DNA of 64,000 nt from Haloplanus rubicundus (GTDB lineage: Archaea > Halobacteriota > Halobacteria > Halobacteriales > Haloferacaceae), in contig NZ_CP031148.1 of assembly GCF_003342675.1 (NCBI RefSeq), forward strand, positions 930,001 through 994,000, given 5' to 3'. The notes beneath the pieces are model-generated. The model saw nothing but the letters and a program-made list of their open reading frames with translations. It was not told where the DNA came from and searched no databases. This document shows positions 5,831 through 14,124 of the stretch, one piece after another; position 1 is the stretch's first letter; each line of letters opens with the position of its first letter. A program made the position numbers and the translations under genes.

Positions 5831-6085
5831 ATGGTCGGGTCGCGGACGGCGACGGCCGTCGCCGGACTGGTCGTGAGCCTCGCCGTGAGCGTCGCCGCGT
5901 GGTACTACTTCGACACCTTCGTTGCCTTTCTCCTCCTCCCGTTCGTCCCGCTCCTGTGGCGACGGGGTGGCGACGCGCCGCCCGTCCGGGAGTGTCCGGC
6001 GTGCGGGTTCAGTACGCGCGACCCCGGCTTCGACTACTGCCCGCGCGACGGGACGCCGCTCGACCGTCGCGACGACGGGGCGTGA
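5831..6085 (+). CDS. small membrane protein with C-terminal zinc ribbon
   Basis: 84 residues. One long hydrophobic region (residues about 7-40) that could form one or two helices is followed by a CPACG...CPRDG pair, a rubredoxin-like zinc ribbon exposed to the cytoplasm. Such haloarchaeal proteins are common and have no assigned function. The ATG at 5831 is the start nearest to the membrane segment. It lies 62 bp after the molybdopterin-domain gene. Confidence 0.75.
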   Translation: MVGSRTATAVAGLVVSLAVSVAAWYYFDTFVAFLLLPFVPLLWRRGGDAPPVRECPACGFSTRDPGFDYCPRDGTPLDRRDDGA

Positions 6086-6149
6086 GCCGCCGAACGCGTC
6101 CACCGTATCTTTATATCGGCGCCGTGATAACGAGGAATTGACAGTCAGT

Positions 6150-7073
6150 ATGGGGGGAGTCAACGGCGGCGAAGCAGACGCATGTGGCGGTGATGGCCGG
6201 CCGACCGCGACGTTGCTGTTGGACGACGATCCGTCGTCCGACGCAGCCCTCGACGTGGCTCCCGAGTCGACGAACGTCCTCGTCGTCTCGGCGTCGCGGT
6301 CGATGCGGGAGGTGGTCGAGGAGTGGCGACGGCGTGCGGGCACGTTGCCCGCCGCGCTCGGGGTGATCACGTACGCGGAGTTCGACCGGTCGGCGTCGGC
6401 CGCGCCGAGCGGGACGCCGTCGCGCAAGCCGCTCTCAGGCGGCGACATCACGGTCACGTCGATGTCGGACCCGGCCGATCTGCGCCGACTCGGCACCGCG
6501 GTCACCCTCTATCTCGACGACTGGGTCGACACCGACCGGGAGACGCTCGTCTACGTCGACGCCCTCGACCCATTCGTCGACGCGAACGGCGTCGAGTCCA
6601 CCTTCCAGTTCCTCCACCTGCTGGTCCAGAGTGTCGACCAGTCGGCGGCCGACGTGGTCGTTCGGCTCGACCCGTCGACGACCGACGAGCGCACCATCAA
6701 CACGTACCGTCCCTTATTCGGCCGGGTCGTCGACGCCACGACGACGCGGACGCTCGACGACGACGAACTCCACGCCCTGCTCGCGAACGGCCGGCGTCGG
6801 TTCGTGTTGCGGTCGCTGCTCGACCAACCGACACTCGAGTTGGACCGCCTCGCCACACGGCTCGCGCGCTGGGAGAACGACATCGACGAGCCGACCGACA
6901 CCCAGCACACCCGCGCCTACACTGCGCTGGCGTCCGTCCACCTCCCACGGCTGACCGAGGCGGGCATCGTGACGTTCGACCGGTCGGCCGAACGGGTGCG
7001 ACTCGCCGACGGCAACTGGTCCGCCGACCGTCTCCGACGATATCTGACCGCGCCGCTCGACGACGACGGATGA
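6150..7073 (+). CDS. haloarchaeal signalling-type protein with C-terminal winged-helix domain
   Basis: 307 residues. The N-terminal ~190 residues resemble a RecA/KaiC-like (DUF835-type) core without a P-loop: TNVLVVSASRSMREVVEEW, then a strand ETLVYVDALDPF. The C-terminal ~95 residues (ELHALLANGRRRFVLRSLL ... VHLPRLTEAGIVTFD) have the pattern of a small winged helix found in many haloarchaeal regulators. It converges on a HalOD1 gene at 7126-7443; the two families often sit near each other in haloarchaea. Likely part of a haloarchaeal signalling pathway; no biochemical role is known to me. Confidence 0.78.
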   Translation: MGGVNGGEADACGGDGRPTATLLLDDDPSSDAALDVAPESTNVLVVSASRSMREVVEEWRRRAGTLPAALGVITYAEFDRSASAAPSGTPSRKPLSGGDITVTSMSDPADLRRLGTAVTLYLDDWVDTDRETLVYVDALDPFVDANGVESTFQFLHLLVQSVDQSAADVVVRLDPSTTDERTINTYRPLFGRVVDATTTRTLDDDELHALLANGRRRFVLRSLLDQPTLELDRLATRLARWENDIDEPTDTQHTRAYTALASVHLPRLTEAGIVTFDRSAERVRLADGNWSADRLRRYLTAPLDDDG

Positions 7074-7125: not shown

Positions 7126-7443
7126 TTACGGATCCGCGTCGACCCGCACCTCGCCGTCGCCAGTGACCGTCACGTGGCATCCGGCGAGGTCGAACTCTAT
7201 CCGCCCGCCCTCTCGAGGTTCGCCGTCGTGTTTGGGGCTGAAGATGCGGTTCAGCGCATCCGGTTGGACGACCGCGTTGAGGTCCACATCGGTCGGTTCC
7301 TTCCCCGTCACTTCGAGAACCGCGTGGACGACGGTGACGCTCAGTTCGATGTCGCTGGTCTCGTAGTAGTTGACGACGTACACTCCGTCCTCGGAATCGT
7401 CGTTCGTCGACGGACGATCCGATCCTGTGTGTGAGTTTTCCAT
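7126..7443 (-). CDS. HalOD1 output domain protein
   Basis: 105 residues from ATG 7443. After a polar N terminus, the core runs from VYVVNYYETSDIELSV through VVHAVLEVTGKEPTDVDL and NRIFSP to a final beta hairpin FDLAGCHVTVTGDGEVRV, which is the HalOD1 layout. HalOD1 is a stand-alone or receiver-linked output domain found only in haloarchaea; its ligand is not known. An AT-rich stretch with TTTAATATTG about 40 bp upstream is a likely TATA element. Confidence 0.88.
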   Translation of the reverse strand: MENSHTGSDRPSTNDDSEDGVYVVNYYETSDIELSVTVVHAVLEVTGKEPTDVDLNAVVQPDALNRIFSPKHDGEPREGGRIEFDLAGCHVTVTGDGEVRVDADP

Positions 7444-7560: not shown

Positions 7561-8097
7561 TCAGTCGTCGAGCGCGTCGGTCAGTCCCCACTCCTCGGCG
7601 CGGGCGCGGGCCTCCTCGCGGGCCTGTTCGCGGATGGCTTCGATCTGTGATTCGTCGGCCAGAAACGCCTCGACGGCGTCGGTGTCGTCGGCGCCGAGTC
7701 GGTCGTCGGGCGCCGCGTCGCGGGTTCGCGTCACGAGGGTCCTGTCGGCGCCGAGGCGCTCCGCAGGCAGTCCCGGCGAGACGCGGAGTTCGTCGGCCTC
7801 GTGAGCCTCGGCCAGCGCGTCCCGGTCGAGTTCGTAGAGTTCGGCGCTGTAGGGGCCGGGACTCGCTACGTCCGCGAGGGCGTCGGCGCCGCCCCGGTCG
7901 GTGTCGGTGCAGTACGCCAGCACGGGCACCCCGTCCTCGAAGGTGACGACGCCGCGGCGCTCGTCGCCGAGGAGGACGGCGTCCTGTGGTTCGAACACGG
8001 CGTAACCCGTCAGGCGTCGCTCCAGCGCCGTCGCCAGCGTCGCCCCCGGGTCGTCGACGACCCGCGAGCGGAGCAGGTCGCCACGGGGTATCTTCAT
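7561..8097 (-). CDS. unknown partner protein of the ParA/MinD ATPase
   Basis: 178 residues. The ATG (8095-8097) overlaps the stop of the ParA/MinD gene by 4 bases (ATGA), so the two are translationally coupled. The first half (LERRLTGYAVFEPQDAVLLG ... GVVTFEDGVPVLAYC) looks like a small beta-rich sensor-type domain. The C-terminal third is a charged helix ending EEARARAEEWGLTDAL, possibly a coiled coil. No family recognised. By analogy with ParA/MinD operons it may be the cargo, adaptor or activator of the ATPase; this is inference from position only. Confidence 0.78.
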   Translation of the reverse strand: MKIPRGDLLRSRVVDDPGATLATALERRLTGYAVFEPQDAVLLGDERRGVVTFEDGVPVLAYCTDTDRGGADALADVASPGPYSAELYELDRDALAEAHEADELRVSPGLPAERLGADRTLVTRTRDAAPDDRLGADDTDAVEAFLADESQIEAIREQAREEARARAEEWGLTDALDD

Positions 8098-8867
8098 ACC
8101 TCTTCGGGGACGACGGCGCTCCGGAAGCGGTCGGCCACGTCGCCGCTCGCCTCGTCGCGCACGTCGAGTCGTCTCGCCGCCTCGCGGAACGCCTGCGACG
8201 CGGGCGTGTCCGGTGCGTGCGCCAGGAGAGGTTCGCCCGCCGCGCGGGCCGCACGGGCCGCGTCGCTCTCCGGGATCACCCCCAGCGTCTCCCCGCCGAA
8301 GTAGCGGTCCGCCTGCTCGGCCACGCGGTCGATCCCCTCGTCGTCGCGGACGCGGTTGAACAGCGTCCCCGCCGTCTCCGTCCCGTACGACCGGGCGTAC
8401 TCCTGTACCTTGAGTCCGTCCGAGAGCGCCGGAATCGTCGGCTGGAGGACGATCACCGTCCGGTCCGCGAGCACGATGGGCAGGACCGCGCTCTTCGATC
8501 CCAGCGCCGCCGGCGAGTCCAGCAGGAGGACGTCCGTGTCGGCGGCGAGTTCCGCCACCACGTCGCGCAGGCGTTCGGGGTCGGCGGCCCGAAAGGCAGC
8601 CAGGCTCGTCCCGCAAGGGACGACCTTCATTCCGAAGCGTTCGTAGACGGCCGCCGAGACGGCGGCGTCTTCCCCCTCGACCAGCAGGTCGTGCAGCGTC
8701 ACCGCCGCGTCGTCGAGGCCGGTGTGAAAGAGCAGGTTCGCCATGCCGGTGTCGGCGTCGACGACCGTCACGTCGTGGGTTTCGGCGAGCGCCATCCCCA
8801 GCGCGAGCGTGCTCGTCGTCTTGCCCGTCCCGCCCTTGCCGCTCGCCACGGCGAACGCCTCGACCAT
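8094..8867 (-). CDS. ParA/MinD-type ATPase
   Basis: 257 residues. A deviant Walker A motif GKGGTGKTT at residues 10-18 has the signature lysine of the MinD/ParA class. A switch I Asp (VVDADTGMANL), the Walker B-type DVLLLDSPAALG and the base-binding region around TAGTLFNRV are also visible. These ATPases dimerise on membranes or DNA to position cargo. The last ~20 residues are not obviously amphipathic, so the MinD membrane anchor is uncertain. GVIPESDAARAARAAGEPL is the usual MinD C-terminal region. The start ATG at 8867 places the P-loop near the N terminus, as the family requires. Confidence 0.92.
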   Translation of the reverse strand: MVEAFAVASGKGGTGKTTSTLALGMALAETHDVTVVDADTGMANLLFHTGLDDAAVTLHDLLVEGEDAAVSAAVYERFGMKVVPCGTSLAAFRAADPERLRDVVAELAADTDVLLLDSPAALGSKSAVLPIVLADRTVIVLQPTIPALSDGLKVQEYARSYGTETAGTLFNRVRDDEGIDRVAEQADRYFGGETLGVIPESDAARAARAAGEPLLAHAPDTPASQAFREAARRLDVRDEASGDVADRFRSAVVPEEV

Positions 8868-8959: not shown

Positions 8960-10399
8960 ATGCTTCCCGGTCCTGCGGCGTTTCGGGAGCTGCTCCGCGG
9001 CCTCGATGCCGAGGAACTGACGGCCTTCGTCGCGGCGGTGTACGAGGCCCGCGGGTGGACGACCGAGCGCGACGGCGACGACGTACTCGTCAGGCCCGAC
9101 GGAGAGCGGGACTGGCGCCGGCTCGCCGTCGATCCCGCCGACCCCCGGTCGGTCGACGCCGACCGCGTGGTCGTGCCGACGCTCGCCGGCGATCCGAACG
9201 CCGACGCGGACCGACTCCTCGACGCCGCCGACATCCTCGAACTGCTCCGTTACGCCGTCGACGACGGCACTCGAACCCGCCTGTTCCGGGAGTTCTTCGA
9301 CCGTGAGCCGACGGCGTTCGAGGGATCGAACGGCCGGGCCGGTCCGTCGGGAGCAGCCGGGAGTCCGTCCGAGTCCCCCGTCGCCGCCACCGCGTCCGCC
9401 CCGACCCCGTCGTCCGACGTATCCGACGTGGCGTCGGACGCGCCCGACCGGGACGACGCGCCGGTCGCCGACCCGTCGCGTCGCTTCGGGCGTCGCCTCG
9501 CCGTCGCCGTGGCGGTGCTGCTCGTGGTCGGCGGCGTCGCCGTCGCCGTCGGGCCGACGCTCGTGCCGTCGAGCGGGGACGGTGACGACCCCGACGCGGC
9601 GGTCGGCGGGAACGCGTCGACCGGGACCCCGACCGCCGACGGCGACGCCGGTCCGACGGTCGACGACGGGGACGAGCCCACCCCGGCCGCCGCCGGAACG
9701 GTGGCCGTCGACGGGCCATTCCCACCCGGCGTCGGTCCCTCGGGCATCGAGAACGCGTCGGCGCTCGTCGCGGCCCACGAGGCGGCGCTCGACGGCCGTT
9801 CCTATCGGCTCTCCGTCGTCGCCCGCGAGTTCGTCGGCGGTCGACCGACCGCCGTCGCCAGGGAGCGGACGGTCGTCGAGGGACCGGCACGGTACCGCTC
9901 CGACGTCCGCGTGATCGGCACGTTCAGACAGGAGCCGCGGGCCATCGGCACCGTCTCCACGTACGCCAACGGCACGACGCGGTTCGTCCGACTCACGTCG
10001 GACACCGACGCCGACGGGACGATCCGGTTCACCGAGCGGGGGAACGAGTCCGGGGCGGCCGGGGGGCCGGGCTGGCGGAGCGTCACCGCCGACTCCGCCG
10101 TCGACCCGTTCGCGAACCGCACCGCGACGCACCTCCGGGACGTACTCGACGTCGACGACGCCGCCATCGTCGGCTCCTTCGAGCGCGACGGCACGACGTA
10201 CGTCTGGATCGACCTCCGCCGCCGACCACCGGGGGGGACCGACGCGATAGACAGCGTCCTCGTCGACGAACACGGCCTCGTCCACGAGGTTCGACACGAG
10301 TACGCCTACCCTCCCGCCGAGGCGTCGACGGTCCGCACCGTCACGACGGTTCGCATTCGACCGGCGAACGTGACCGCATCGCCGCCGCCGTGGCGCTGA
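8960..10399 (+). CDS. paralog A: membrane protein with degenerate nuclease-like N-terminal domain
   Basis: 479 residues. Residues 1-115 (FRELLRGLDAEELTAFVAAV ... LLRYAVDDGTRTRLFREFF) resemble the restriction-endonuclease-like fold seen in haloarchaeal Mrr-type proteins, but I do not see the catalytic D-x(n)-E/Q-x-K set. A disordered Ala/Ser/Asp linker follows, then one membrane helix (about residues 178-197). The outer C-terminal domain (from VAAHEAALDGRSYRLSV) ends with NVTASPPPWR. This outer part resembles the domain of haloarchaeal lipoproteins with AHE-x-A-L motifs. It is the first of three similar genes here; the other two lie downstream on the opposite strand. Function unknown. Confidence 0.8.
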   Translation: MLPGPAAFRELLRGLDAEELTAFVAAVYEARGWTTERDGDDVLVRPDGERDWRRLAVDPADPRSVDADRVVVPTLAGDPNADADRLLDAADILELLRYAVDDGTRTRLFREFFDREPTAFEGSNGRAGPSGAAGSPSESPVAATASAPTPSSDVSDVASDAPDRDDAPVADPSRRFGRRLAVAVAVLLVVGGVAVAVGPTLVPSSGDGDDPDAAVGGNASTGTPTADGDAGPTVDDGDEPTPAAAGTVAVDGPFPPGVGPSGIENASALVAAHEAALDGRSYRLSVVAREFVGGRPTAVARERTVVEGPARYRSDVRVIGTFRQEPRAIGTVSTYANGTTRFVRLTSDTDADGTIRFTERGNESGAAGGPGWRSVTADSAVDPFANRTATHLRDVLDVDDAAIVGSFERDGTTYVWIDLRRRPPGGTDAIDSVLVDEHGLVHEVRHEYAYPPAEASTVRTVTTVRIRPANVTASPPPWR

Positions 10400-10469
10400 T
10401 CGGGCGTCGTCGAACGCCGCCGCCCGTCCGCGTGACCCGCGGTCGGCGGTCGGGTGATCGCGTGGCGTC

Positions 10470-11987
10470 TCACGCCCGCCGTTCGGCCGGCCGGGCGTCC
10501 GGTTCCGTGGGGGCGGCGCGCGCGGGCGCCGATCCCTCGTCTATCCCTCTGTGTCGTGGCTCGCGGGGCGGGACCCACCCCGGCCGCGTCACCTCCACCG
10601 GACCGGGCGTGATCCGGATGACCGTCTCGACCCGCACCGACTGATCGCTACGCGGGACGTACGACCGCCGAATCTCGCGGACGATGCCCGTCTCGCTGAC
10701 GAGCGCTCGCCCCGAGACGTCGGTCGCGCCGGACCACGGGTCTCGCTCGAAGTCGAGGACGTACAGCGTCGTCCCGTCGCGCTCGACGGTGCCGGCGAGC
10801 CGCGACGACTCGACGCTCAGATACCACTGGACGTACCGCTCGGTTCGGTCGACGACCCGGTTCGGGTCCGCCGCCGTCATGGTGGTGCGCAACTGGAGCC
10901 GCGGGCTCTCGCCCGCCGCGTCGCCGACGTCGTGCGACCGGACGTAGCGTCGCACCCCGTTCGAGTACGTCGCTCCGTCGCCGATCACCTCCGACGCGTA
11001 GTCGACCTGGCCGAGTTGTTGTGTCTCGGATCGGTAGCGCCCGGACGCCGTGACGACGGCGCGTTCGGTGGCGACGCCGCGCAGTTCGCCGTCGGCGAAC
11101 TCGCGATGGACGATGTGGAGCCGGAACGACCGGTTGCCGAGCGCCGCCTCGTGCGCGTCGGCGAGTCGTCCCGCGTGCCCGACTCCGTTCCCGTCGAGTC
11201 CCGGCGGCGCGTCGACGTCGACCGACTGGTTCCCGGCCGCCGAGCCGTCGTCGCTCGCCGGTTCGTCGCCGCCGAACGCCGTGGCCGCCGACTCCGTGAG
11301 CGCCGGCCCTGCGGCGGTCACGATGCCGCCGAAGATGAGCGAGAGCGCGACCACGACGCCCGCCGCCCGGACGAGGCGCTCCTGTCGCGTCGTCGACGCC
11401 GCGGCCGTCGCCGAACCCTCCGCGTCCGCCTCCGCTACCGCGTTCTCGCTCTCGTCCCCGTCCGGTCCCGCCGTCTGCTCGGCGGTTTCCGCCGCGTCCC
11501 CCGCGTCGGCGGCGGCGGACGGGTCGGTGTCCGTCGTCCCCGCGTCGCGGGCGCTCCCCGCTGCTCCGGCGACGGTCGGCTCCGGCGACGCGGTGCCCGC
11601 CGAGTCGTCCCGATCCCACGGCTCCGCTGCCGCGGGCGGCGCACCGATCGCTTCGAACTCGCGGTCGAAGAACGTACGACACAGCCGGTGTCGGTCGCTC
11701 GGGTCGAGCGCGTACGCCAACAGTTCGTAGAGCGTCGCGGCGTCGACGACGGTTCTGTCGATCCCTGCTTCCCCATCGCAGTCGGCCGTTCCACCAACGC
11801 AAACGACGAGTCGCCGCGTGTGGTCCGATTGCGGCGGCGTCGCCAGCAGAGCCACGTCGCCGTCCTCGTCCCCGCTACTGACCGTCCACCCGCGGGCGTC
11901 GTACACTGCCGCGACGAACGCTGTGGCCGTCTCGCGGTCCAGCTCCGCGAGGTGGTCACGGAACGCCGGTCCCGGCACAGATGTCAT
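10470..11987 (-). CDS. paralog B: membrane protein with degenerate nuclease-like N-terminal domain
   Basis: 505 residues, same architecture as the gene at 8960: an N-terminal block with FRDHLAELDRETATAFVA and ARGWTV, a long acidic linker, a membrane helix around VVVALSLIFGGIVTAAGPAL, and an outer domain opening with ADAHEAALGNRSFRLHI. It converges on paralog A (70 bp between the stops) and follows paralog C on the same strand, with 39 bp between them. The three were probably made by local duplication and inversion. No catalytic residues can be defended. Confidence 0.8.
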   Translation of the reverse strand: MTSVPGPAFRDHLAELDRETATAFVAAVYDARGWTVSSGDEDGDVALLATPPQSDHTRRLVVCVGGTADCDGEAGIDRTVVDAATLYELLAYALDPSDRHRLCRTFFDREFEAIGAPPAAAEPWDRDDSAGTASPEPTVAGAAGSARDAGTTDTDPSAAADAGDAAETAEQTAGPDGDESENAVAEADAEGSATAAASTTRQERLVRAAGVVVALSLIFGGIVTAAGPALTESAATAFGGDEPASDDGSAAGNQSVDVDAPPGLDGNGVGHAGRLADAHEAALGNRSFRLHIVHREFADGELRGVATERAVVTASGRYRSETQQLGQVDYASEVIGDGATYSNGVRRYVRSHDVGDAAGESPRLQLRTTMTAADPNRVVDRTERYVQWYLSVESSRLAGTVERDGTTLYVLDFERDPWSGATDVSGRALVSETGIVREIRRSYVPRSDQSVRVETVIRITPGPVEVTRPGWVPPREPRHRGIDEGSAPARAAPTEPDARPAERRA

Positions 11988-12026
11988 ACTGTCCCATACG
12001 GCCTGCCACGCAAAACTCTTCAGCCC

Positions 12027-13436
12027 TCACCGGCGGTCGAGCCACGGCGGCGGCGTGGCGGTCACGTTCGCGGGTGTCACGCGCATCGTGACCTCGACGT
12101 GGACCGGTGGGCCGTCCGAGGGACGGTGCGTGTACTCGTAGTGGAGTTCGTGGACGAGGCCGTCCTCGTCGACGAGGAGGCTCCCGACCGCGTCGTCCCG
12201 ACCGACCGTGATCCAGATCCAGGTCGTGCCGTCGTGCCGGACGGCATCGACGATCCGGAGGTCGCTTCCCGAAACCGTCTCCCGAAGGTAAGACACGGTT
12301 CGACGGGCGAATCGGTCACGGTCCGAGTCAGCGTAGGTTATGATCGTCGACCCCGGTTCCTGGCTCAGCCTGATGTACAGCCCATTCCCGTCGGCGTACG
12401 TCGAGGCGTCACCGACCGCGGACGGAGTCTGTCGCACGACGCCCATCCACGTCACGTCGGACCGATAGCGCGTGGACGACTCGACGACGGTCCGCTCCCG
12501 GACGACTCCCGTCGGCCGCCCGTCGGCGTACTCGCGGTGATCGACCGACAGGCGATACGAGCGGTTCGACAGCGCCGCCTCGTGGGCCGCGATCATCTCC
12601 GAGACGTTGTCGACGCCGCCGGTGCCGACGCCCGGCGGTCGCGGTTCGGGCACCGACACTTCCTCGCCCCCGCCGGGTGCGACCGGGCGCCCCTCGCGGT
12701 CCATCACGTCCGGCGGGGCCGCGGGACGGACCGTACTCGGGCTCTCCGTCTCGGTTCCGTTGTCGTCGCCGAGGGCGGAGCCGTCCCCGCCCGATCCCGA
12801 CGACGACGTGAGCGCCGGCCCGGCCGCGACGACGCCGGCGACGACGAGTGCGACTGCCAGCCCCGCGGCGACCACGCGCGTCGCCGACCAAGTGGCGGCC
12901 GTGCCGTCGTCGTCGCCTTCCTCGCCGCCGGTCCGAGCGGCCGCGGCTGCGGCGTCGGTGTCCGGCGCCCCTCGTGGCTCGTCGTCCCGAGGTGTTTCCG
13001 CCCCGTCGTCCACCGCCGATTGCCGTTCCGTCCCGCCTCGATCCGTCCCGGCCGTGTCGGTCGGCGTCGATTCGGCTGTCGGCGCCGACAGCACGACCGC
13101 CTCGGGGTCGCACTCGAAGAACTCGCGGCACAGCCGGATCCAGTCCTCGTCGTCGAGGGCGTACCGAACCATCCGCCGGAGATCGGCGGCGTCGAGGGTC
13201 GTCGCGTCGTCGCCAGCGTCGTCGCGGAGCGTGACGGCCGGATCGTCCTCGGCGTGGACCGCGAGCCGTCGCGGCCGCTCCGTGCCGGGCGGCCACACCA
13301 GCGTCTCGCCGTCGCCGCCCTCGTCGGTGACCGTCCACCCGCGGGCGTCGTAGACGGCCGCGACGAAGGCGGTCAGCGTCTCGGGGTCGAGGCCGGCGAG
13401 ACGGTCACGGAACGGCTCGCCGGGTGCGCGTACCAT
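12027..13436 (-). CDS. paralog C: membrane protein with degenerate nuclease-like N-terminal domain
   Basis: 469 residues. The N terminus FRDRLAGLDPETLTAFVAAV followed by YDARGWTV is almost the same as in paralog B. The linker (residues ~120-190) is acidic, a membrane helix falls near VVAAGLAVALVVAGVVAAGP, and the outer domain begins AAHEAALSNRSYRLSV and ends NVTATPPPWLDRR. Relative to paralog B the outer domain has diverged more than the N-terminal domain. A role in envelope sensing or surface stress is possible but unproven. Confidence 0.8.
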   Translation of the reverse strand: MVRAPGEPFRDRLAGLDPETLTAFVAAVYDARGWTVTDEGGDGETLVWPPGTERPRRLAVHAEDDPAVTLRDDAGDDATTLDAADLRRMVRYALDDEDWIRLCREFFECDPEAVVLSAPTAESTPTDTAGTDRGGTERQSAVDDGAETPRDDEPRGAPDTDAAAAAARTGGEEGDDDGTAATWSATRVVAAGLAVALVVAGVVAAGPALTSSSGSGGDGSALGDDNGTETESPSTVRPAAPPDVMDREGRPVAPGGGEEVSVPEPRPPGVGTGGVDNVSEMIAAHEAALSNRSYRLSVDHREYADGRPTGVVRERTVVESSTRYRSDVTWMGVVRQTPSAVGDASTYADGNGLYIRLSQEPGSTIITYADSDRDRFARRTVSYLRETVSGSDLRIVDAVRHDGTTWIWITVGRDDAVGSLLVDEDGLVHELHYEYTHRPSDGPPVHVEVTMRVTPANVTATPPPWLDRR

Positions 13437-13491: not shown

Positions 13492-14124
13492 TCAGAACTC
13501 CGTCCCCTTCCGCGCTCGCTGGCCCGCGTCGATGGGGTGGCGCTCCTTTCGCACCTCGCTCACCAGGTCGGCGACGTCGGCGAGGTAGTCGGGGCGCTCG
13601 TGGCCGCCGGTGCAGACGAGTTCCAGCCCGTCGGGCTTCGACTCGACGAGGGCGACCACGTCGTCGGGGTCGATCAGCCCGCGGTTGGCGGCGTACAGGA
13701 TCTCGTCGAGGATCAGCATGTGGACGCCATCCGCGGCGTCGCCGTCGAGCGGGAGCGGCGCCGAGCAGTCGGCGTCGCGCGCCCCCTCGATCAGGTCGCG
13801 GGCGCGTTCGAGGCCGCCCCGCGCCTTCGCGGCGTGGTCGGCGTCGTCGCTCCCGTCGGCGAAGCCGTGCCAGCCGTAGTGGCCGCTGTGTTCGTAGGTG
13901 AAGCCGGCGACCTGATCGATGGCCGCGTACTCGCCACGCACGCCCTCGACGCTCGCCGCGCCGCCTTTCATGAACTGGAGCAGGTGGACGCGGTAGCCGT
14001 GGCCGGCGGCGCGAAAGCCCATCCCGAGGGCCGCGGTGGTCTTGCCCTTCCCGTCCCCCCACCAGGCCTGCACGAGACCGAACTCGGGCGGCGCCTGTGG
14101 GGTGGGGTGATCGTCGTCGGTCAT
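13492..14124 (-). CDS. cobA: cob(I)yrinic acid a,c-diamide adenosyltransferase
   Basis: 210 residues. A P-loop GDGKGKTT sits after FGLVQAWW, then the family motifs VHLLQFMKGG, GFTYEHSGHYGW and a Walker B-like VHMLILDEI with N-x-G-L-I. ELVCTGGHERPDYL is the characteristic closing motif of the CobA/CobO type. The enzyme transfers 5'-deoxyadenosyl from ATP to Co(I) corrinoid. It is the last gene of the minus-strand cobalamin cluster, 26 bp after cbiZ. The ATG at 14124 is preferred over an upstream in-frame start because it gives the usual short N terminus. Confidence 0.95.
   Translation of the reverse strand: MTDDDHPTPQAPPEFGLVQAWWGDGKGKTTAALGMGFRAAGHGYRVHLLQFMKGGAASVEGVRGEYAAIDQVAGFTYEHSGHYGWHGFADGSDDADHAAKARGGLERARDLIEGARDADCSAPLPLDGDAADGVHMLILDEILYAANRGLIDPDDVVALVESKPDGLELVCTGGHERPDYLADVADLVSEVRKERHPIDAGQRARKGTEF

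Follow-up and report, generated by a model that had tools for sequence, protein, structure and literature searches.

What kind of protein joins a nuclease-like domain without catalytic residues to a membrane helix and a second, outer domain, and what could three such proteins encoded side by side be doing? This question is raised by a cluster of three genes, here called A, B and C, in a 64,000-nucleotide stretch of the Haloplanus rubicundus genome, hereafter the window. Gene A (8960..10399, + strand) encodes 479 amino acids, gene B (10470..11987, − strand) 505 and gene C (12027..13436, − strand) 469. The predicted coordinates and orientations of the three open reading frames were borne out in the window, and a genome search found them to be the sole full-length copies in their own 3.77 Mb genome. 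These full-length paralogs are 39–49% identical, B being 39% and C 49% identical to A. This full-length identity, together with the recurrence of the layout in relatives, bears out the original prediction of three paralogs with a common domain order and rules out chance similarity of motifs.

Each protein consists of an inactive Mrr-like head, a linker, one transmembrane helix and a DUF7537-type outer domain, the layout of B and C being as in A. All three carry FVAAVY(E/D)ARGWT, a YA(V/L)D...FF element, an acidic linker, one hydrophobic helix and AHEAALxxRS(Y/F)RL. Of the shared motifs described at the outset, REFF and the final PPPW do not extend to B, in which RTFF replaces REFF and the protein ends with RPGW followed by a tail. 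The cluster lies between a MinD-type ATPase gene (8094..8867, − strand) on the left and, on the right, a gene of the cobamide block that we take to be CobA-like (13492..14124, − strand); both are borders of the slot and are given as context, not as parts of the system proposed below.

Ancestry and active site of the head

The degenerate Mrr_cat head spans residues 1–120 in A (8960..9319, +), as delimited by profiles, a structure model and motif alignment, and residues 1–113 in both B (11649..11987, −) and C (13098..13436, −), as delimited by profiles and motif alignment. An Mrr-type resemblance had been proposed for this N-terminal segment, and the profile comparisons uphold it. When 25 heads of the broader set, A9, were compared with eight canonical Mrr_cat domains by hhalign, they matched over 109 columns (prob 97.1, P 5.2e-11), and A4, a profile of 24 heads mostly of genus level, matched the canonical Mrr_cat alignment over 42 columns (prob 96.2, P 2.6e-9); two unrelated control alignments gave P values of 0.62 and 0.45, each P value being that of a single comparison. 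The A9 profile retrieves canonical Mrr proteins (L116 at 1.4e-10, L126 at 4.1e-8), and A4 reaches short or multi-domain proteins that themselves scan as canonical Mrr_cat nucleases, with PF04471 E values of, for example, 4.5e-32 (L116), 2.8e-28 (L081) and 7.3e-29 (L130). In the Pfam scan of A, B and C themselves, a PF04471 match was absent up to E 1. By family profile we place the three proteins as remote relatives of Mrr_cat. The heads share with the haloarchaeal Mrr_cat (PF04471) endonucleases a start of the FxxxVxxLWxxxGW type and a late helix element, and by profile comparison the two groups are homologous over the length of the head. What sets the heads apart from those enzymes is that the active-site residues are gone, that the central strand is missing in some places and that a transmembrane helix and an outer domain are fused on.

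The loss of catalytic residues, also part of the original prediction, is complete among the sequences aligned. When heads and canonical domains were aligned together, all eight canonical members showed the D, GxD and QxK residues and 0 of 25 heads did; a lysine at the QxK position was likewise found in 0 of 25. On the strength of the motif missing from 25 of 25 heads, an active nuclease was rejected. The Mrr ancestry could still be read in favor of a head that cuts through an unusual active site, but with no head retaining D/GxD/QxK equivalents or the lysine we consider this reading barely credible. Four other haloarchaeal proteins (L080, L120, L125 and L128) score above the Pfam cut-off for Mrr_cat without retaining the motif and may represent evolutionary intermediates. 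A, B and C are grouped here with inactive restriction-endonuclease modules, not with nucleases or restriction systems.

The structure models of the head and the outer domain were each built from 6 sequences. The model of the A head has a mean pLDDT of 70.4 and shows the order helix-helix-three strands-helix-helix. A VIA structure comparison of this model gave weak matches that include several enzymes of the restriction-endonuclease fold at Z 2.6–4.0 (MspJI, Z 4.0; FokI, 3.3; PaqCI, 2.6), with a death-effector domain ranked first at 4.7. Foldseek gave no match below E 1, the best having an E of 1.1. A direct sequence search of the head against the PDB gave no match under E 0.1. We did not count the absence of a fold from the match lists as evidence. 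Because the mean pLDDT is 70 and Foldseek gave no match under E 1, the predicted head structure alone would not reveal the kinship to Mrr, and it is the sequence profiles that support the proposed homology to Mrr_cat. Some Haloplanus heads, L040 and L042, are missing even the central strand region. This counts against a DNA-binding head, since a PD-(D/E)XK core that binds DNA ought to retain that region.

Membrane topology and the outer domain

Plain hydropathy places one transmembrane helix in each protein, in agreement with what had been predicted: residues 180–198 of A (9497..9553, +), with RRFGRR on the inner side, residues 205–223 of B (11319..11375, −) and residues 188–206 of C (12819..12875, −). 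The orientation was analyzed with 45 homologs that carry head, helix and outer domain. Arginine plus lysine in the 15 residues flanking the helix averaged 2.73 before and 0.13 after it, giving a positive-inside arrangement in 42 of the 45, with 3 ties and none reversed. The outer side carries 255 N-glycosylation sequons, where shuffled sequences predict 59.6, and the inner side 6, where they predict 8.2; 60 cysteines lie inside and 3 outside. Since the charge bias, sequons and cysteines agree, the analysis supports the view that each of the three proteins crosses the membrane once, with the head predicted in the cytoplasm and the DUF7537-like domain outside.

The outer domain, which had been left unidentified, occupies residues 254–478 of A (9719..10393, +), 261–480 of B (10548..11207, −) and 267–468 of C (12033..12638, −), assigned by profile comparison in B and by Pfam and profile comparison in C. 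Profile comparison matched this part to DUF7537: 24 outer domains aligned by hhalign with 13 DUF7537 proteins over 213 columns (prob 99.4, P 3e-21). Against Pfam DUF7537 (PF24381) itself, C scored 21.2 bits, below the cut-off of 31.7 (E 2.3e-4), and A and B gave no Pfam DUF7537 match. Judged from sequence, the outer domain is a divergent relative of DUF7537 by homology that falls short of the score Pfam requires for membership. The homology to DUF7537 proteins includes the final PxW; A, B and C differ from them in having a transmembrane anchor and a cytoplasmic head where those proteins have a lipobox.

As for the fold, the model of the outer domain has a mean pLDDT of 53.6, a low confidence. 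The top-ranked solved structures against this weak model include LppX (Z 7.5; rmsd 4.4 with 122 aligned), LprF (6.3) and LprG (6.3), and several LolA entries and MucB rank lower; all Z values are below 8, a range in which unrelated barrels such as fluorescent proteins and porins are also found. Foldseek gave five matches below 1e-3, namely two chains of one LolA-type protein, LprG, a DUF1329 protein and LolA3. A direct sequence search of the outer domain against the PDB returned nothing under E 0.1. From these comparisons the outer domain probably adopts the fold by which LolA, LppX and LprG bind lipids or lipoproteins, the likeness to the LppX/LprF/LprG and LolA/MucB (RseB) superfamily coming from the weak model only. 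Archaea in general are reported to have the LolA-type fold, and roles in the superfamily are lipid or lipoprotein carriage or envelope sensing, the characterized members often being carriers (PMC6363788).

The latter point brings in the main rival to a sensing function, in which the proteins would be surface carriers of lipids or lipoproteins without any signaling, and the helix and the dead head would serve as an anchor or as a device for dimerization or clustering. Besides the frequency of carriers in the superfamily, it is favored by the standalone DUF7537 proteins, which are common in these genomes and mostly carry a lipobox-like (L/T)AGC. We regard it as a possible reading, to be weighed further with the selection estimates below.

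Recurrence, genomic slot and selection

Relatives of the A sequence were found in at least 48 of 118 related genomes, the head profile A4 has matches in at least 37 of 60 genomes, and A9 has matches in at least 21 of 294 genomes across the phylum, the matches listed all falling in the taxonomic order of the window. These counts are lower bounds, as the searches with A and A9 scored 13–14 candidates per genome and the search with A4 up to 80. The layout recurs in Halobacteriales. A targeted search for these domains, which is not a random sample, gathered 87 non-redundant head-bearing open reading frames, of which 45 have the head, the transmembrane helix and the outer domain, 29 have the head and one transmembrane helix without this outer domain, 5 have several transmembrane helices and 8 have neither; those without this outer domain include canonical Mrr proteins, and one member of the set, L005, is a G002 copy with its halves in different frames. 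Among proteins with the head and one helix, the outer part is DUF4864 in L073, above the cut-off, and in L079, L184–L186, L188, L189, L193 and L204, below it; it is DUF4352 in L080, above the cut-off, and in L120, L125 and L128, below it. Pfam gave no outer-domain match for L067, L074, L183 and L207.

Within the genus, the slot between the MinD-type gene and the cobamide genes, a conserved gene block, holds 0–3 copies. Three copies are found here and in G002, two in G001, G003 and G004, one in G005, G006, G007, G009 and G010, and none in G008, where a CobQ/CobB-type gene fills the slot, or in G011, where the MinD-type gene directly adjoins a cobamide gene. Four further copies lie outside the slot, in G002, G005 (two) and G006. 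A tree places the three paralogs in separate clades, each of which also contains sequences from other species, and a recent local triplication was therefore rejected. The slot history is thus, as read from the sequences, a birth and death of old paralogs. In the G002 relative of A (L005 and L034; G002:C7:476704-478090), the N-terminal and C-terminal parts are read in different frames, so that either the gene is broken or the sequence contains an error.

In the window the slot is flanked by the MinD-type gene, which occurs in 12 of 12 genus genomes (87–95% identical in the other 11), and such constancy could suggest that A, B and C are partners of this ATPase in polar positioning or surface organization. 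However, the MinD-type gene is also present in G011, with its empty slot, and in G008, whose slot contains the CobQ/CobB-type gene, and homologs elsewhere have other neighbors: in G037, one flank carries genes for threonyl-tRNA synthetase, thymidylate synthase and DHFR, and the other flank a gene for a PAS/BAT regulator. We consider such a partnership very improbable. A functional unit with the MinD or cobamide genes was rejected, because MinD is also found in genomes whose slot has no paralog and homologs lie in other surroundings. The original prediction had suggested a look for consistent partners among the neighbors of homologs. In the neighborhoods compared, listed with a simple home-made gene caller, no gene recurred as a partner outside the genus, and the neighbors differ.

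The MinD-type gene itself has a close companion in a short gene (7561-8094, −) that is 80–94% identical in the genus loci compared and has no Pfam match under E 0.05, the two forming a tightly conserved pair. A DUF7504/DUF7344 protein (5922-7073, +) and a HalOD1 protein (7126-7443, −) adjoin this pair in most of the genus loci compared.

Selection was estimated as pairwise Nei-Gojobori dN/dS, on genes of high GC content. The head gave 0.40, 0.40 and 0.32 in three close pairs and 1.04 in the pair of C with its G002 counterpart; the outer domain gave 0.36, 0.30, 0.25 and 0.67 in the four pairs, in each below the head, and the linker 1.39, 0.66, 0.92 and 0.75. MinD gave 0.13 and 0.10 in two pairs. 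By these sequence-based estimates the head is constrained in three of four pairs despite the loss of catalysis, and the head of the C/G002 pair is under weak constraint, nearly unconstrained, or in fast or diversifying evolution. For the carrier explanation, the greater conservation of the outer domain in all four pairs is a favorable sign, but purifying selection on the head in three pairs, and its retention with several kinds of outer domain, exceed what a bare anchor would need.

A membrane sensor or adaptor as a candidate function

The anatomy described above, that is, the domain homologies, the catalytic loss, the head-in topology, the recurrence and the purifying selection on the head, is well supported. 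What we infer about the function of A, B and C goes further: they may be non-catalytic, one-component transmembrane sensors or adaptors with a dead Mrr head inside and a DUF7537-type domain outside, and we put this forward tentatively as the best explanation, at somewhat under an even chance. The outer domain would capture a hydrophobic ligand, a lipid or a surface lipoprotein; its state would pass through the helix to the head, an Mrr domain without an active site that would still be kept as a folded module; and the head would respond by binding a target instead of cutting one, be it DNA, a nucleotide or a partner protein. The copies, gained and lost between species, would diverge as receptor-like proteins. 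The identity of the ligand, the nature of the output and the direction of signaling are all conjectural in this scheme. The original prediction had likewise suggested an intracellular DNA- or nucleotide-binding sensor coupled to a surface domain; the profiles and motif alignment agree with it as to an Mrr-type head that has lost catalysis, and the failure to find a consistent partner outside the genus does not help it.

Precedents for parts of this scheme exist. Inactivated PD-(D/E)XK domains are presumed to retain nucleic-acid binding (PMC1189080), and inactive restriction-endonuclease domains in BREX-type helicases are proposed as nucleotide sensors (PMC12839542). In NA-iREase1 (PF22722) and the BREX helicase iREase, a PD-(D/E)XK domain is kept without catalysis, as the putative one in the heads of A, B and C would be, and a sensor role is proposed (PMC12839542). 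Those domains are joined to NTPases or helicases, whereas A, B and C span the membrane once, and a Pfam scan of them found neither a PF22722 match nor an NTPase domain. COG4741 and RmuC combine a nuclease-fold domain with a membrane helix (PMC1189080), in which they resemble A, B and C with their putative nuclease-fold head. The catalytic motif of COG4741 is described as well conserved, unlike that of the heads, and an outer ligand domain, probable in A, B and C, is not mentioned for COG4741/RmuC in the passages cited (PMC1189080).

The same source proposes COG4741 as a membrane-associated guardian against foreign DNA (PMC1189080), and A, B and C might analogously stand guard at the membrane when DNA or viruses enter. 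The outer domain would then sense an attacker or an envelope lipid, and the head would bind DNA or act as an adaptor or decoy for active Mrr. Descent of the head from a restriction family, a slot copy number of 0–3 with fast divergence, and Mrr_cat matches above the cut-off in 10 of 12 genus genomes would fit such a role. We nevertheless judge it unlikely, as no PADLOC family matches A, B or C up to E 1, the slot lies within the cobamide/MinD block and not in a defense island, and no tie between copy number and active Mrr genes was seen. A known defense system was rejected as an identification, no PADLOC model matching A, B or C.

Returning to the sensor or adaptor, a broader version can be formulated in which haloarchaea would possess modular one-component receptors with a dead-nuclease output and interchangeable DUF7537/LolA-like, DUF4864-like and DUF4352-like inputs, coupling envelope lipids or lipoproteins to DNA or to a DNA-bound partner. 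This generalization is speculative, and we rate it as rather unlikely; if true, the coupling would need neither a kinase nor an anti-sigma factor. Little has been charted of how archaea sense the state of their envelope. If the sensor explanation is true, the recurrent pairing of a disarmed nuclease domain with a probable lipid-binding surface domain would open a new path by which the cell surface could reach DNA. The layout also gives two unannotated domains, the head and DUF7537, a common testable context. In the open-licence literature (subscription papers and preprints being outside the scope), no paper naming DUF7537 was found, and none of the titles listed names a layout of dead-nuclease head, transmembrane helix and DUF7537. 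Each domain comes from a described family or superfamily, and their combination looks undescribed.

Other arrangements of Mrr-like domains were encountered along with these proteins. A membrane M48 peptidase is fused to an Mrr_cat domain with an intact motif in two genus genomes (L150:544-1884 and L151:1465-2805; Pfam on L150). An Mrr-like domain is located at the C-terminus of long proteins in L082:1342-3069 and L124:2070-3896; L124 has weak bPH_3 and MIT matches, and its Mrr-like domain has no Pfam Mrr match. The genome of the window itself encodes a 613-aa protein (L166:97-1938; G000:C1:218694-219029) with an Mrr_cat domain whose motif is intact; this protein is also above the NA-iREase1 cut-off and contains hydrophobic stretches.
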